Assembly (NCBI RefSeq): GCF_000196895.1
Contig: NC_014297.1
Coordinates: forward strand, 806,001 to 870,000
Length of the DNA: 64,000 nucleotides
Direction: 5' to 3'
Source: Halalkalicoccus jeotgali B3
GTDB lineage: Archaea; Halobacteriota; Halobacteria; Halobacteriales; Halalkalicoccaceae
How positions within the stretch are numbered: the stretch's first letter is position 1; each line of letters starts with the position of its first letter. Of this stretch, positions 22,279-56,329 are shown piece by piece. Under the pieces are notes generated by a model that had not been told where the DNA came from, made no database searches, and saw only the letters and a list, made by a program, of their open reading frames with translations. Position numbers and translations under genes: made by a program.

Positions 22279-22297
22279 GGCGCGGCGAAGCCGCGCC
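22279..22297. repeat. Perfect 8-bp hairpin with GAA loop
   Basis: GGCGCGGC and GCCGCGCC enclose a three-base GAA loop between the eL40 gene and tRNA-Leu. It has the same design (perfect stem, three-base loop) as the hairpins at 50614-50733. It could be a transcript end structure for eL40 or a member of a repeated intergenic element. Confidence 0.45.
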
Positions 22298-50508: not shown

Positions 50509-50579
50509 TGCGCCGGCCGGGAGTTGAACCCGGGCTATGAGCTTGGGAAGCTCATGTCCTACCACTAGACCACCGGCGC
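50509..50579 (-). tRNA. tRNA-Gly (anticodon CCC)
   Basis: A 71-base tRNA. On the minus strand, acceptor GCGCCGG pairs with CCGGCGC, the D arm contains GTCTAGTGGTAGGAC, the anticodon stem TGAGC/GCTCA encloses TTCCCAA with anticodon CCC, and the T arm is CGGGTTCAACTCCCG. Discriminator A, no CCA encoded, no intron. Its upstream side holds the hairpin cluster and no clear TATA box within about 60 bases. Confidence 0.95.
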
Positions 50580-50613
50580 GCTCAGTCGTGGTCTCCTTCG
50601 CGCGCCGTGGATC

Positions 50614-50632
50614 GCAAATCCGTCGGATTTGC
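50614..50632. repeat. Hairpin 1 of cluster (8-bp stem, 3-base loop)
   Basis: GCAAATCC, loop GTC, GGATTTGC: a perfect inverted repeat. First of four such hairpins between tRNA-Gly and nadE. Confidence 0.6.
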
Positions 50633-50640
50633 TCACCACC

Positions 50641-50664
50641 GGGACACGAGCACGCTCGTGTCCC
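50641..50664. repeat. Hairpin 2 of cluster (11-bp stem)
   Basis: GGGACACGAGC pairs with GCTCGTGTCCC around two bases (AC), extendable by one C-G pair outward. Perfect inverted repeat. Confidence 0.6.
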
Positions 50665-50684
50665 GAGCCCCCGTTCGATTCGTC

Positions 50685-50707
50685 CTCGCGCGGCAAAGCC
50701 GCGCGAG
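50685..50707. repeat. Hairpin 3 of cluster (10-bp stem, AAA loop)
   Basis: CTCGCGCGGC, loop AAA, GCCGCGCGAG: a perfect inverted repeat. The design resembles the hairpin at 22279-22297 (core GCGGC-loop-GCCGC). Confidence 0.6.
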
Positions 50708-50712
50708 CGGTC

Positions 50713-50733
50713 GGGGGTGGCAAGGCCACCTCC
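50713..50733. repeat. Hairpin 4 of cluster (9-bp stem, AAG loop)
   Basis: GGGGGTGGC, loop AAG, GCCACCTCC: inner six pairs perfect, then one G-T pair and two more G-C pairs. Last hairpin of the group before nadE. Confidence 0.55.
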
Positions 50734-50871
50734 CTATTCATGGGGGCACCGGCGCTTACCCAAGCGTACCCCGTCGCGTCACTTGAACGTAGCGCTTCGT
50801 TTCGCTGGACGGATATCCAGTTTCTCGCTCGCGTAGGTGGCTATTAGACGCTGGGGTCGTTATACGTCTCC

Positions 50872-51660
50872 ATGATCGACCTGCGACTTTCCGAAGCGGA
50901 ACTCGATACCGCCCACGACCGCATCACCGGCTTCATCGCCGACACGGTCGCAAACGCGGGCGCTGACGGCGCGGTTCTGGGGCTTTCGGGTGGGATCGAC
51001 AGCACGCTGACCGCGTATCTCGCGGTCGAGGCGCTCGGCAAGGAGAACCTCCGCGGGCTCGTTCTGCCCGGAGAGGTGAGCAGCGAGGCGAACATGAGCG
51101 ACGCCGAGCGCGTGGCACGAGACCTCGAAATCGAGTACGACGTCATCGAGATCAACCCGATCGTCGAGAGCTTCGTCTCGGCGGTACCGGAAGTCGAGGG
51201 CGATCAGGTCGCGGTCGGCAACAGCCGCGCGCGGGTCCGTGCCGTGCTCAACTACCTGCTCGCGAACCACGAGAACCGGATCGTCCTCGGGACGGGCAAC
51301 CGTGCCGAGGCCGCCGTGGGCTACTACACCAAATACGGCGACGGCGCGGTCGACTGTCTCCCTATCGGCAACCTTTACAAACAGCAGGTCCGCCAGCTCG
51401 CCCATCACGTCGGCGTGGCCGAGGATCTCGCGGAAAAGACCCCAACCGCCGAGCTCTGGGAGGACCAGACCGACGAGGGCGAGCTGGGAATCGACTACGA
51501 TACGCTCGATGCGGTGCTCGCGCTGCATATCGATGGGCCGCTTTCGGTCTCGGCGACCAGTGAGGCCGTCGGCTGCGGCGAGGACGTCGTAAGGGACGTT
51601 CGGGCACTATACGAACGGAGCGCCCACAAGCGCGCGATGCCGCCCGCACCCGAACAGTAG
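50872..51660 (+). CDS. nadE: NAD+ synthetase
   Basis: The 262-residue enzyme makes NAD+ from deamido-NAD+ with ammonia. LGLSGGIDSTLTAYLAV carries the PP-loop (residues 39-44), then NSRARVRAVLNYLLANH, GTGNRAEAAVGYYTKYGDGA, and LPIGNLYKQQVRQLAHHVG. It lacks the glutaminase domain of the longer form, so ammonia is its nitrogen source. PTAELWEDQTDEGELGIDYD is the usual loop. The gene starts after the hairpin cluster. Confidence 0.96.
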   Translation: MIDLRLSEAELDTAHDRITGFIADTVANAGADGAVLGLSGGIDSTLTAYLAVEALGKENLRGLVLPGEVSSEANMSDAERVARDLEIEYDVIEINPIVESFVSAVPEVEGDQVAVGNSRARVRAVLNYLLANHENRIVLGTGNRAEAAVGYYTKYGDGAVDCLPIGNLYKQQVRQLAHHVGVAEDLAEKTPTAELWEDQTDEGELGIDYDTLDAVLALHIDGPLSVSATSEAVGCGEDVVRDVRALYERSAHKRAMPPAPEQ

Positions 51661-51663
51661 GCG

Positions 51664-52338
51664 CTACGGACGCTCGTACCGGTCGATCAGCTCGGCGAAC
51701 GCGCTCGCCTCGGCGGCTTCCTGCGTCTCGATCGAGGAGTCATCGTGCAGCCGGTTTTTCGTCAGCGCCAGCGCGTGGTGGTCGTTGCCCGCTGTTTCGC
51801 GTGCGATCGTCTCGGGATCGTCGGTGATACGCGAGATCAAACCCATCCGGAGGGCTTCCTCGGCGTCGATCACCCGCCCGGTGAGCGAGAGGTCGCGCGC
51901 GTCGGCCCCGCCGACAAGGCGTGGAAGACGGACGGTGCCGCCCCATGCGCCGAAGAGGCCGAAGCTCACGCCGGGCTCGCCGAAGCTGGCTTCGGGAGTC
52001 GCGATCCGCAGATCGCAGGCCAACGCCATTTCGAGACCGCCGCCGCGTGCGGGACCATCGATCCCCGCGACGACGACGCTGTCGGCCCGCTCGATGGCGC
52101 GGGCGGTACGCTGGCCGCGCTCGGCGAACTCGCGGCCGTCCTCTAAGTCGGCGACGACATCGAGGTCCGCCCCCGCACAGAACGCCGAGCCCGCCCCCGA
52201 GAGGTAGACGACGGGCTCGTCGGCCGTTTCGACCGCGTGGGCGAGTTCGTCGAGGCCCTCGGGGGTGAGCGCGTTGCGGCGTTCGGGGCGGTCGAGGGTG
52301 ACGTACCGAACATCGCCGCGGGCATGGGTCGTGATCAT
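51664..52338 (-). CDS. Enoyl-CoA hydratase/isomerase family protein
   Basis: Starting at MITTHARGDVRYVTLDRPER (52338) the protein has 224 residues, shorter than the usual 255-260. The crotonase oxyanion-hole motifs are visible: SGAGSAFCAGADLDVV and DGPARGGGLEMALACDLRIA, then FGEPGVSFGLFGAWGGTVRL. One catalytic Glu position of hydratases is replaced in the AWGGT segment, so isomerase or other crotonase activity is possible. Facing nadE, three bases between the stops. It is divergent from the next gene. Confidence 0.87.
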   Translation of the reverse strand: MITTHARGDVRYVTLDRPERRNALTPEGLDELAHAVETADEPVVYLSGAGSAFCAGADLDVVADLEDGREFAERGQRTARAIERADSVVVAGIDGPARGGGLEMALACDLRIATPEASFGEPGVSFGLFGAWGGTVRLPRLVGGADARDLSLTGRVIDAEEALRMGLISRITDDPETIARETAGNDHHALALTKNRLHDDSSIETQEAAEASAFAELIDRYERP

Positions 52339-52391
52339 GCGAACGGGTGGTTTCCAAAGGTCTTTGCCTCTTCCATCCCTATCGCAATCAA

Positions 52392-53036
52392 ATGGAACAG
52401 GCCGAGTCGGCACGCCGGGGCGCGCGTGAGGCCCTCGCCGACATCGAACCACCGAGGCTGGCCGACCGGATCGACTCGCTCCTCGCGACGGCCTCGATGG
52501 CCCCCGGCGCGCTCGTCCTGTTGGTCGCCCAGCGGGCCGACCCCGCAGTCGACCCCGAGGCGCTCGCCGAACGCGCCGCGGGCGTCCAACTCATCTACGA
52601 GGGGCTTCGCCTCACCCGCACGCTCGCCCACGAGGAGCCGTGGGCCGATTCGGAGGACCAGACCGCCGCAAATCTCGACGTGCTGGCCGCCGACATCCTC
52701 GTTTCCCGTGGCTTTTACCTGCTCGCGATGACCGACGCCGCCGACCGGGCCGTCGAGACCATCCGTGCCTTTGGCCGGGATCAGACCCACCGCCGCGAGT
52801 CCGAGGCCGACCGGGCGGCGCTGGACGCCAACCTCGAAGGGGACGTCCTCGAACTGGCGGGCGTCGCCGGCGCGAGCGCGGTCGAACGGTCCGTCTCGCC
52901 GCCCGTCCAGGGTGCCCTCGACCGGCTGGCCAGCCGGGCTGAAGCCCCCCTGCCCGACGCCGCGGCGCTGTTTCGCGGGACGGCGCTCCTTTCGGGCCCC
53001 GACGGCCACGCCCCGCCCTCCGCGACCGACCCCTAA
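52392..53036 (+). CDS. Conserved haloarchaeal protein (DUF7114-like)
   Basis: From MEQAESARRGAREALADIEP the protein has 214 residues, almost entirely alpha-helical and alanine-rich (DRIDSLLATASMAPGALVLL, LDVLAADILVSRGFYLLAMT). The regular helices and ALDRLASRA pattern recall an all-helical enzyme such as polyprenyl synthases, but no aspartate-rich motif is present. I recall the family as DUF7114, restricted to haloarchaea. The gene ends about 60 bases before tRNA-Thr. Confidence 0.75.
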   Translation: MEQAESARRGAREALADIEPPRLADRIDSLLATASMAPGALVLLVAQRADPAVDPEALAERAAGVQLIYEGLRLTRTLAHEEPWADSEDQTAANLDVLAADILVSRGFYLLAMTDAADRAVETIRAFGRDQTHRRESEADRAALDANLEGDVLELAGVAGASAVERSVSPPVQGALDRLASRAEAPLPDAAALFRGTALLSGPDGHAPPSATDP

Positions 53037-53097
53037 CCGTGCGAGGGAACGCGGATGGAAACCCTTAAAAACGTTCCACGGAAAGGAAGCGATGCGT

Positions 53098-53169
53098 GCC
53101 TGGGTAGCTTAGCGGTAAAGCGCGTCCTTGGTAAGGACGAGACCCCGGGTTCAAATCCCGGCCTAGGCT
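53098..53169 (+). tRNA. tRNA-Thr (anticodon GGT)
   Basis: A 72-base tRNA. Acceptor GCCTGGG pairs with CCTAGGC (one G-T pair), the D arm has AGCTTAGCGGTAAAGC, the anticodon stem CGTCC/GGACG encloses TTGGTAA with anticodon GGT, and the T arm is CCGGGTTCAAATCCCGG. The discriminator is T, normal for archaeal tRNA-Thr. The AT-rich island starts within about 10 bases after it. Confidence 0.96.
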
Positions 53170-53262
53170 TCGCACCTAATATTTGTCTTCGCATTTGATC
53201 TCACTAAATATTGCGGGTAACGATATGATATAGTGTTATCAACTGAAGTACACACAACAGAA

Positions 53263-53272
53263 TTATATTTTA
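53263..53272 (+). promoter_or_regulatory. Promoter of the AT-rich island gene
   Basis: TTATATTTTA lies about 25 bases before the ATG at 53293, a spacing that gives a leaderless transcript. The whole stretch 53170-53292 is AT-rich and holds no other feature I can name. Confidence 0.45.
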
Positions 53273-53292
53273 GCCACAATTGACATTCTATA

Positions 53293-54600
53293 ATGAATCA
53301 GCAATTACTAAAATCATGCTCGGGCACTGTTCAGGAGAAATTAGAAGAATTAGAAGAGATATATGTCGATTATTCCAGAGAAGAGATATTAACATTCAAA
53401 GATGGTTTGGATCTTTATATTCTCAGTAAAGTTCAGTCCGATGCAGTGAGACCATACCTGAAAGAATATGATTCAGATTCTTTTTGGAACTGGGATGAAC
53501 TTACTGATGAACCTCACCGGGCTTGGTATGTATTCCGTTTGTTAAATCGATATAATATCGAAGGATGGAGCGAGGTGAATAATATCAAGGAGATTATCGA
53601 TTGGTTTCGTGATCATCAAACTATTCGGGGGGAAATCAATTGGTCAGAGGGTGAAGACCACTCCGGTCCAATGCGTCTGTTTGTAGAGGCATGCCCTAAC
53701 GCGCTAATGACTAAGAAAGCCGTAGAATACTTCATAGGAAACCCGCCTGATATGTATCCTGCGTATAATTTACCAATTGGAATATCAGCAATATGTGATT
53801 ACAATTACTATAATTATGAGGAGGAAATTGAAGATTTATCTGAAGAATTAGTCAGACATCAACATGAGGAAGGGTATTTTACTAACCGTGGCAAACTTTC
53901 ACAAAATCGGAATTACAATGCCAAAGTAACCTCATTTGCAATACAAGCATTGTCGAAGCAGCCAGGATATGAAAGAGAGATAGCGAATGCGGTGAACTGG
54001 CTGGAGAAATCTGGTACTTATTCAGCTACAGTATTAGGTCTCATATTAAGCTACAAAGGCCCGAAAATCCCACAGGCCAAATATGAATGGGAGAATAGAT
54101 TGTCTGAGCAACGACAAAGTATTGTAGGCTCAGATTTTGTAGAAACATCCCCACCGACCGAGTCCGGTACTCATACTACAACGCTCCGCACTGAAGTTGA
54201 GCGGCTAATCCAAGAGACAGAGAATGAATTAAAAATCTGTTCACCTTATATTGATATGCTTCATGAGGATCTTATCGATCTGTCAGAGAATAACGAGTCG
54301 ATAGAAATCAAAGTATTGGCCAAACCAAAAGGAGATATAAGTGGAAACAGAGCTAGATTAGCAAAAAGTGCTATAGAGCAACTCAACAGAGCAAGTAACC
54401 GAGAAGTACGAACAAATTATCTCATTCATTCAAGAATAGTCATATCTGACAACGAATTACTTCTTGTATCTTCTGCTGACTTCACACGAGATCAATTGGT
54501 AGATGAATTTAACGCGGGTCTTACAACAGGTGATGAAGATGCCATTGCATCGGCAACAAACTATTTTGATAACCTCTGGGCATCTTCAGATCCCTTGTGA
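53293..54600 (+). CDS. AT-rich, probably acquired gene: helical repeat domain plus PLD-like domain
   Basis: The 435-residue product has two parts. Residues 1 to about 275 are helical with repeated motifs WFRDHQTIRGEINW, LVRHQHEEGYFTN and AVNWLEKSGTYSAT, like the toroid repeats of terpenoid-cyclase/prenyltransferase folds. About 295-430 form a phospholipase-D-like domain: LIQETENELKICSPYIDML, an IKVLAKP strand, and HSRIVISDNELLLVSSADFT where HKD enzymes have HxKxxxxD, the lysine here being arginine. Base composition is far lower in GC than its surroundings and codons are AT-ended. It is leaderless, alone, and beside tRNA-Thr. Confidence 0.75.
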   Translation: MNQQLLKSCSGTVQEKLEELEEIYVDYSREEILTFKDGLDLYILSKVQSDAVRPYLKEYDSDSFWNWDELTDEPHRAWYVFRLLNRYNIEGWSEVNNIKEIIDWFRDHQTIRGEINWSEGEDHSGPMRLFVEACPNALMTKKAVEYFIGNPPDMYPAYNLPIGISAICDYNYYNYEEEIEDLSEELVRHQHEEGYFTNRGKLSQNRNYNAKVTSFAIQALSKQPGYEREIANAVNWLEKSGTYSATVLGLILSYKGPKIPQAKYEWENRLSEQRQSIVGSDFVETSPPTESGTHTTTLRTEVERLIQETENELKICSPYIDMLHEDLIDLSENNESIEIKVLAKPKGDISGNRARLAKSAIEQLNRASNREVRTNYLIHSRIVISDNELLLVSSADFTRDQLVDEFNAGLTTGDEDAIASATNYFDNLWASSDPL

Positions 54601-54626
54601 ATAGTAGAATTTATACAAATCATAAT

Positions 54627-54737
54627 CTAATCTATTTTCCTTCTTCTCTGATGCTCCTCCAACCCGTGCTCCACTAACTCGTCCCGCTTCTCGAAGCGCT
54701 CGCCACACAACTGGCAGACGAACTGCCGCTCCATCAT
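54627..54737 (-). CDS. Very small C2H2-like zinc finger protein
   Basis: The 36-residue peptide starts at one of two adjacent ATG codons and reads [20 protein letters not shown] then HQRRRKID, a classical CxxC...HxxxxH-type single zinc finger. The ATG overlaps the stop of the pterin dehydratase gene (TGATG), which shows coupling. Its last codons lie in the AT-rich DNA of the island border. Function as a DNA- or protein-binding accessory is likely. Confidence 0.7.
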
Positions 54738-55087
54738 TCCGGTGCGTAGTCGTCGTGGATGCGGTCCATCCGCGCGGCCATCACGAAGTCGCCCTTGTGG
54801 AGGCCGTCGATCTTGTGGGTCCACATCTCGACTCGTACCTCCCCCCACTGGAGATGCAGGTCCGGATGGTGCCACTCCTCTTCTGCGAGTTCGCCGACCT
54901 CGTAGGTGAACTCCAAGGCATCTCGGAAGTCCTCGAACGCGTAGGCTCCCTCCAAATGGTGGCCCTCTACTACCTCCCAGACCTCGTCGTCGAGTTCCGT
55001 CAGATACTCCGCGTACCCCTCCTCGGAGAGCGGTTCGTCCTCGGAGGTACAGGCCTCACATTCCTGATCCGCGAGTCGCTGTGCCAT
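54734..55087 (-). CDS. Pterin-4a-carbinolamine dehydratase
   Basis: The 117-residue protein is a full PCD domain. [20 protein letters not shown] and [20 protein letters not shown] give the conserved histidine triad, and [13 protein letters not shown] is the last helix. An N-terminal extension of about 20 residues contains three acidic pairs and CEACTSEDE with two cysteines. In animals and bacteria the enzyme recycles tetrahydrobiopterin; no aromatic amino acid hydroxylase is visible here, so the substrate is open. It is 42 bases downstream of mnhG. Confidence 0.88.
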
Positions 55088-55129
55088 ACTCGATGGTAGA
55101 TCGCCCCGGTGTTTGTAGCTTCGCCCCGG

Positions 55130-55471
55130 TCAATCCCCGTCCTCGTCGGCGGGATCGGGCCAGGTCACGCCCTCCATGAACGGCACGCCCATGCGCTGGG
55201 CTGCCAGCGCGATCATGTGTGCGCCCGTGGGCACCGTCAGGAACAGAAAGAGGATGCCGATCAGCGAGGCCAGCCCGGCCCCACCGGGGCCAAAGCGGAC
55301 GAACCCCGCAAGGAAGATCGCGGCGGTGCCCAGCGTCGTGGGCTTGCTGGTGGCGTGCATCCGGTTGTAGACGTTCGGAAACCGGAGTAAGCCGATGGTC
55401 CCAACCGTCAGGAAGAAACACCCGACGGCGATCAGTACGGTGATCAGAACCGATTGGAGCATGCTGACCAT
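55130..55471 (-). CDS. mnhG: Cation/proton antiporter subunit MnhG
   Basis: The 113-residue protein has three membrane helices (SVLITVLIAVGCFFLTVGTIG; TTLGTAAIFLAGFVRF; ASLIGILFLFLTVPTGAHMI). LLRFPNVYNRMHATSKPTTLG is the conserved MnhG/MrpG loop. It is the last gene of the mnh operon, with its ATG overlapping the mnhF stop (TAATG). It is a small subunit needed for assembly of the antiporter complex. Confidence 0.93.
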   Translation of the reverse strand: MVSMLQSVLITVLIAVGCFFLTVGTIGLLRFPNVYNRMHATSKPTTLGTAAIFLAGFVRFGPGGAGLASLIGILFLFLTVPTGAHMIALAAQRMGVPFMEGVTWPDPADEDGD

Positions 55472-55767
55472 TATTCGATGATGTCCCCCTCGGTGACGAA
55501 CTTCGCGACGCTGACGGTGGTGATGAAGCCGATGATCGCGAGCACCAGCGCGCCCGTGATGAAGAGGCTCCGGCCGGTCTGGAGTGCGAACAGCACGGCG
55601 ATGGCGACCACGTTCGTGACGACGGCGTCGATGGCGACGACCTGGTCGGGGACCGTCGGCCCGGCAATCACCCGGTAGGCACAGAGGATACACAGCGCGC
55701 TGACGACCACCAGCCCGGCCCGGACCGCGAGCACCACGAACTCGGGCTCGGCGCCCTCAGCGGCCAT
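55471..55767 (-). CDS. mnhF: Cation/proton antiporter subunit MnhF
   Basis: The 98-residue product (ATG at 55767, an upstream GTG at 55776 is an alternative) has three helices. AGPTVPDQVVAIDAVVTNVVA is the conserved MrpF/MnhF motif between helices one and two. The start lies 11 bases inside the end of mnhE. MrpF is thought to help conduct ions or stabilise the complex. Confidence 0.92.
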   Translation of the reverse strand: MAAEGAEPEFVVLAVRAGLVVVSALCILCAYRVIAGPTVPDQVVAIDAVVTNVVAIAVLFALQTGRSLFITGALVLAIIGFITTVSVAKFVTEGDIIE

Positions 55768-56329
55768 CCGTCTCACCCCCGTCGACGACGATCTCCGGGG
55801 CCGGTGACCCGGGTTCGAGCTCTTCGTCGAAGATCAACAGCGCGTAGTCCTCCCAGGTGCGAATGGGTGCGACCACGGCTTCGGGATCGCGTCCGTCGAT
55901 CACGTGGACGTACAGCGCGTTTCGTTCCGCGTCGTAGTCTTGGGTGATCGTCCCCGGAGTGATGGTGATGCTGTTTGCGATGGTCGTCACCCCGAAGTCG
56001 CTTTCGACCCGCAGCGGGATCAGGATCACTTCGGGTTCGATAGTCGATCCCGGCGCGAGCACCCGGTAGGCGACGTCGACGTTGGCGACGATCACCTCCC
56101 GGGAGAACGTAAGCAGGTACAACAGGGCGTAGGGCACCGCGTGCAGGAGTCGCCGGAGGTCGATACGGTCGTCGTAGAACCGCCGGAACAGGAACGCGAT
56201 CGGTAGGCCGACCGCTAGGCCTCCGAGGAACTGCCCGAAGAGGGGTGCGAGGGCGAGTTCGGCGTCGCGGACGAACAGCCACAGTACGGCCAGTCCCACA
56301 CCGACGACGGGCCAAGTTCGTACCCTCAC
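55757..56329 (-). CDS. mnhE: Cation/proton antiporter subunit MnhE
   Basis: The 190-residue protein starts with a GTG that overlaps the mnhD stop (GTGA). It has an N-terminal hydrophobic pair (VVGVGLAVLWLFV; LFGQFLGGLAVGLPIAFL), YLLTFSREVIVANVDVAYRV as the membrane-associated family motif, and a soluble C-terminal domain with IANSITITPGTITQDYDAE. The acidic tail after 165 is haloarchaeal. This is the MrpE-like assembly subunit. Confidence 0.93.
   Translation of the reverse strand: MRVRTWPVVGVGLAVLWLFVRDAELALAPLFGQFLGGLAVGLPIAFLFRRFYDDRIDLRRLLHAVPYALLYLLTFSREVIVANVDVAYRVLAPGSTIEPEVILIPLRVESDFGVTTIANSITITPGTITQDYDAERNALYVHVIDGRDPEAVVAPIRTWEDYALLIFDEELEPGSPAPEIVVDGGETDGR

Follow-up and report, generated by a model that had tools for sequence, protein, structure and literature searches.

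The locus raises the question of why four small-loop hairpins are packed into 120 bases between nadE and the tRNA-Gly(CCC) gene of Halalkalicoccus jeotgali B3. The hairpins were analyzed within a 64,000-nucleotide stretch of this genome, referred to here as the window. An earlier note, made from the letters of the window, offered structural RNA, cruciform sites or a protein-binding array as candidates. These are possible consequences of the arrangement, and a dispersed palindromic DNA element fits the distribution of the hairpins better. We consider it likely that the cluster arose by insertion of a short two-hairpin palindromic repeat belonging to a dispersed haloarchaeal family that is probably mobile or was once mobile.

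Hairpins and promoter box at the tRNA-Gly(CCC) gene

All four inverted repeats claimed for positions 50614-50733 are present, with sizes slightly off the 8-11 bp stems and 2-3 base loops given for them (Table 1). The window contains five perfect stems of ≥9 bp with loops of ≤3 nt, three of which fall within 120 bp here. Sixty dinucleotide shuffles of the window gave a maximum of one such stem per 120-bp stretch, and this outcome (0 of 60 with more than one) rules out chance clustering. The arms of H1 extend to 16 nt (50607-50622 and 50624-50639) and are 81% complementary. Two features had been overlooked: a fifth arm pair (50574-50581 with 50600-50607), one arm of which reaches into the first bases and acceptor strand of the tRNA, and a leader copy of the tRNA 5′ end (50747-50755). 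These two ends of the cluster are more informative than the hairpins themselves. Loci L131 and L123 have a hairpin of other sequence at the position of H2.

Table 1 Features of the nadE/tRNA-Gly(CCC) region, in window coordinates
Feature	Position	Strand	Remarks
tRNA-Gly(CCC)	50509..50579	-	Right-hand target copy T formed by its first bases, GCGCCGGTGG (50579-50570)
Complete family unit (model R1)	50570..50646	-	37.2 bits, E 3.3e-7
Hairpin 2 (fifth arm pair)	50574..50607	-	Arms 50600-50607 (T′) and 50574-50581 (tRNA 5′ end), 18-nt loop
tRNA-type core (model R2)	50602..50646	-	67.2 bits; this copy is among the 14 in the model
H1 (hairpin 1 of the family unit)	50614..50632	-	9 bp stem, loop 1; compensated in relatives
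H2 (upstream of the unit)	50640..50665	-	12 bp, loop 2; its end supplies the left T (CCCGGTGG)
Outer hairpin enclosing H3 and H4	50662..50752	-	Arms 50662-50672 and 50742-50752, 82% complementary; also in the RNA fold
H3	50685..50707	.	10 bp, loop 3; inside the loop of the outer unit
H4	50713..50733	.	8/9 bp, loop 3; inside the loop of the outer unit
Leader copy of the tRNA 5′ end, GCGCCGGTG	50747..50755	-	Insertion edge on the promoter side; 25 nt from the box
Promoter box of tRNA-Gly(CCC), CGAAGCGCTACGTTCAAGTG	50780..50799	-	Conserved in relatives; putative function, from conservation and position
nadE	50872..51660	+	Divergent neighbor, open frame; name from the earlier note

The hairpins had been placed where the promoter should be, with no TATA box seen. 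This claim is not supported: a conserved box is present ~200 nt upstream of the tRNA (50799-50780, minus strand), at this distance because the insertion displaced it. Box spacing was compared at 30 tRNA-Gly loci chosen by the tRNA alone and at three exact-pattern loci added for the distances (33 rows), and the box, GCGCTACGTTCAAGT or a close form, was recognized in 21 rows. At loci without the extra copy the box is mostly 25-28 nt from the tRNA (25 nt in G004, a relative of the same genus that lacks the insertion, 25 in G055, 26 in G025, 27 in G011 and 28 in G027), with longer gaps in G016 (44 nt) and G003 (75 nt). At filled loci the box is 25 nt from the leader copy in the window genome (G000), G001, G002, G052 and G006 and 26 nt in G047. 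The tRNA itself is 80-201 nt from the box in these genomes, the window genome having 201 nt, and the first gap is longer, at 31-90 nt, in seven further filled loci. The difference in spacing between filled and empty loci indicates that the window leader gained ~176 nt. Judged from these spacings, the hairpin cluster sits in a ~176-bp insertion between the promoter and the tRNA-Gly(CCC) body.

Two other features of the window were recorded. A perfect 8-bp hairpin (GGCGCGGC-GAA-GCCGCGCC, 22279-22297) located 86 nt before tRNA-Leu(TAA) is H3-like in style and lacks the H1 family flanks. The stretch 52000-56000 has a G+C content of 0.56-0.57 compared to 0.63-0.69 in most of the window, adjoins tRNA-Thr(GGT) (53098-53169), has an open reading frame from 53293 and is perhaps an integrated element.

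Architecture and distribution of the repeat family

The family unit consists of T (CGGYGG), TGA, hairpin 1, GATCCWC, T′, a spacer and a second T, where T′ is the reverse complement of the local T and the right T of tRNA-type units is the tRNA itself. Hairpin 1 is 17 nt long in most coding copies and 19 nt in most tRNA copies. T′ pairs with the right T and mostly also with the left T. Its sequence is GCGCCG at most glycine loci and GTGCCG in G012, whose tRNA begins GTGCCGG, and it is TCCCGT for Gln, CCGCCG for Thr and CCGACG in coding copies; in this genome the copy ahead of tRNA-Gln pairs imperfectly. Inspection by eye found leader units of some class at 15 of the 30 tRNA-Gly loci. Some filled loci have a different hairpin between T and T′, and in the G032 leader a 63-bp unit is repeated in an array of 3.2 copies. 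Nested copies occur at L115 and L133 and tandem copies at L122, L124 and L128. Fragments of the tRNA-Gly 3′ end (21-27 nt) were also observed to recur ~80-260 nt from the tRNA on the same strand in G035, G021, G031, G015, G052, G012 and G002.

The covariation check suggested at the outset bore out compensation of stem changes in relatives. Changes on both sides were found in 9 of 16 pairs of the tRNA-type alignment (96.9% of cells paired) and in 4 of 14 pairs of the coding-type alignment (95.8%), figures that are inflated because the copies were partly picked for having the stem. Five of 33 rows had been dropped from the architecture alignment as unlike the family (L021, the second row of L084, L101, L115 and L145). 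A weaker result came from 28 copies that were selected on hairpin 2 with its flanking sequence, at loci retrieved with a motif or a model, and that include five without a usable left edge: at the positions checked, hairpin 1 was full or one pair short in 13 of them. Coding copies often have an imperfect hairpin 1. The GA/GA tandem flanking hairpin 1 resembles a kink-turn, but no fitting bulge was seen and this reading was set aside.

Compensated stems are also expected of a conserved functional leader RNA of certain tRNAs, in which the hairpins and 5′-end copies would guide how the precursor folds or is processed by RNase P, the coding copies being secondary. The predicted fold of the leader is strong (z = -6.8 with the tRNA and -5.6 alone), with the GCGCCGG leader copy paired to the 3′ acceptor strand of the tRNA and the true 5′ end held in hairpin 2, and the unit recurs at the same tRNAs in several families. 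However, it is missing from about half of the 30 tRNA-Gly loci, including same-genus G004, is present in anything from one to three or more copies, and also occurs inside unrelated protein genes. Rfam matches at the gathering score were to tRNA only, which rejects a known structured RNA family. A conserved leader RNA is therefore an improbable origin of the array. The fold model suggests that a leader unit may nevertheless affect the tRNA through competition between the 5′ copy and the 3′ acceptor strand.

Profile searches connected the tRNA-leader and coding copies. Model R1 (left T, hairpin 1, T′, spacer and right T) was built from 12 coding copies only, three tRNA-type rows of the same length being excluded. 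R1 detects the complete unit of the window (Table 1), where the next best place scores 16.1 bits (E 0.041), and genome-wide it also recovers the copies at tRNA-Gly(TCC) and tRNA-Thr(CGT). Detection of tRNA-leader copies by a coding-only model identifies both types as one family. The arrangement described in the earlier note is real and its shape is kept more than the stem sequence, but its statement that the hairpins are not copies of one repeat is true within the window only and fails beyond it, because H1 is a member of a dispersed family in which the flanks (GGTGGTGAGC ... GCGATCC) are conserved and the stem is variable.

The common core bears on a reading in which there is no mobile element and each array is local, made by template switching (T copied, T′ from the other strand, T again) followed by tandem slippage. 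A double template switch would be expected to produce the T-x-T′-y-T order, and T′ agrees with its local T in the Gly, Gln, Thr and coding copies, GTGCCG of G012 among them. A local process cannot, however, yield the core TGAGC ... GCGATCC that the profile finds across types in tRNA leaders and many unrelated genes, so a purely local origin has little probability.

There are six dispersed family copies in this genome, four before tRNAs and two in or at the end of open frames. H1 was matched 5′ of tRNA-Gly(TCC) and tRNA-Thr(CGT), with a shorter-stem match 5′ of tRNA-Gln(TTG). The tRNA survey covered 44 of 46 places, the other two having given no ARAGORN tRNA; no such unit was seen upstream of the other 40 of the 44. 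The 5′ ends of the four unit-bearing tRNAs, Gly(CCC), Gly(TCC), Thr(CGT) and Gln(TTG), are GCGCCGGTGG, GCGCCGGTGG, GCCGGTGT and AGTCCCGTGG, respectively. These are four of the six tRNAs in this genome with a 5′ end within one mismatch of CCGGTGG; two tRNA-Lys (GGGCCGGTAG) are equally near and have no unit. The copy at C1:54528 is inside an open frame, and the copy at C1:1983981 lies close to where an open frame with DAO and BFD domains ends, an arrangement also found in G006 (L211).

R1 matched 34 of 58 genomes at E ≤ 0.01 (own genome included), with up to 17 matches in one relative. At E ≤ 1e-4 in a phylum-wide draw it matched 16 of 196 genomes, all of them among the 34 own or same-order genomes listed; the 160 genomes of the draw without a match are not listed singly. 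The exact tRNA-type pattern occurs at nine loci (Natrinema, Halorhabdus, Halalkalicoccus, Natrialba, Halopiger and two MAGs), seven of which continue into tRNA-Gly or tRNA-Thr(CGT), one of which runs into Ns after the tRNA start and one of which has no tRNA. Viral contigs gave no exact match to one coding-type pattern that would point to a viral carrier. L251 of Natrialba swarupiae has the promoter box and leader unit followed by no tRNA-Gly body and only a stretch like the tRNA-Gly 3′ end, and is possibly a decayed tRNA-Gly(CCC) gene. A dispersed intergenic repeat of ~250 bp in G045 and G034 (L297, L298, L299, L307 and L308) has a unit-like core and the motif GAGCGGTCGGCCCCTTCC, and may be a composite or a longer relative of the unit.

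Copies inside protein genes

The 42 matches in 40 further loci comprise 12 clearly intragenic copies and 30 at gene ends, intergenic or unclear. Of 20 open frames searched, 19 match Pfam families, including TmcA, SdhA, Amt-PII fusions (three), antiporter subunits (three), a tetrapyrrole methylase and SRAP. The intragenic copies are sense frame 0 in nine cases, sense in the next phase in one, where the aligned copy has one extra base at its left, and antisense in two (L293 and L325). The nine frame-0 genes gained 51 or 57 bp. Copies without a coding signal on either side include some with lengths that three does not divide. The coding target GACGGYGG supplies Asp-Gly-Gly codons and the coding copies translate roughly as DGGERS-x-GSRSSSD-xx-SDGG. 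Insertion in frame into protein genes of unrelated kinds is a trait of the Rickettsia palindromic repeats known as RPEs, and it is found here; the two antisense copies and the one in another phase, of 12, count against the insertion reading.

Empty sites in orthologues, also an RPE-like trait, were found in sdhA. The site was readable at 17 of 30 sdhA loci, of which two are filled (G025 and G047), five have another insert and ten have none. The filled genes have DGG codons at both ends of the insert, and the GACGGYGG site is empty in G038, G000, G004 and G006. The sdhA of G003, G001, G005, G014 and G041 (L169, L170, L174, L178 and L181) have other DGG-flanked inserts at or next to the site that are unlike R1 units, and the sdhA linker may be an insertion hot spot. 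The boundary of the TmcA insert cannot be fixed because the site is in a variable-length linker (orthologues read at 20 of 30 loci). An AlphaFold model of G025 SdhA (28 sequences) was poor, with a mean pLDDT of 43.9, and was left out of the argument.

Proposed spread of the element and related systems

The preferred reading, insertion of a dispersed palindromic repeat, would start with an element that moves as DNA and inserts at CGGYGG-type targets, either the 5′ ends of tRNA-Gly, tRNA-Thr(CGT) and tRNA-Gln(TTG) or GACGGYGG in proteins. A target copy at each end leaves the tRNA 5′ end intact and keeps the protein frame with a gain of 51 or 57 bp. Transcription of the leader array would then start at the displaced promoter, with RNase P trimming the transcript. 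Such sites would persist since they do little harm, either before a tRNA with a restored 5′ end or in a protein linker. With relatives in front of other tRNA genes and in frame inside proteins, the element looks like selfish DNA persisting in harmless places. Counting against mobility, no case of insertion was observed between isolates of a single species.

A fixed mobile sequence alone would not provide a T′ that fits every new target, and some further process must act. The agreement of T′ with the T of each locus points to a remaking of the arm by hairpin-templated correction once the unit has arrived, and hairpin-directed correction or template switching would maintain this agreement. A bolder and rather doubtful version is a target-mirroring element without a transposase of its own, whose T′ is rewritten to the reverse complement of the target by template switching on its own hairpins, and which serves restored tRNA 5′ ends and in-frame protein loops alike.

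The source of mobility could also be a Y1 transposase acting in trans on an IS200/IS605-type remnant (PATE or REP-like). PATEs are described in Haloquadratum (PMC3119063), and the unit has the hairpins near both ends, the short target at both ends and the lack of inverted terminal repeats that mark IS200/IS605-derived elements. Against this, Y1_Tnp (PF01797) is found in only 22 of the 58 genomes and is missing from ten genomes that have 6-17 copies (one of the ten being only 71% complete), which leaves Y1 unsupported as a general mobilizer, although these genomes may have had it in the past, and there is no longer, transposase-bearing version among the copies read. A Y1-mobilized remnant is thus very unlikely. 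REPs of bacteria are extragenic and tied to Y1-type transposases. They are likewise small dispersed palindromes, but the haloarchaeal unit is commonly intragenic and its genomes often lack Y1.

Known systems were compared by description. The PATEs, MITEs and small mobile repeats (SMRs) of Haloquadratum walsbyi are likewise small palindromic repeats without a transposase (PMC3119063). As described there, SMR-A inserts into the palindromes of other elements, like the nested copies here, and the SMRs (~80-110 bp) and MITEs have inverted terminal repeats, whereas the unit ends in direct copies of T. Terminal inverted repeats, a MITE trait, are absent from the coding copies read, which start at TGAGC and end at CGGYGG with T recurring directly. 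The closest precedent is the Rickettsia RPE, described in PMC2229807 as short palindromic repeats of 105-146 bp in frame in many unrelated proteins and also in tmRNA and RNase P RNA. The haloarchaeal unit differs in its length of 51 or 57 bp, its CGGYGG-type target, its target-matching arms and its presence in tRNA leaders rather than in RNA interiors. Coding palindromic elements are also known from Wolbachia and reported for Methanocaldococcus jannaschii (PMC2996958, PMC2229807), the latter being palindromic repetitive elements with coding potential and likewise archaeal coding palindromes, in another lineage. Searches of open-licence papers brought up no haloarchaeal element that fits the unit.

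The CGGYGG-target palindrome family would account for some of the insertions flanked by Asp-Gly-Gly in proteins of haloarchaea, and for the lack of a TATA box before some tRNA genes. Sister genomes with filled and empty sites offer a way to test how tiny elements spread. With this family, the selfish coding palindromes known from Rickettsia gain a clear archaeal counterpart, one that has tRNA leaders as an additional habitat.
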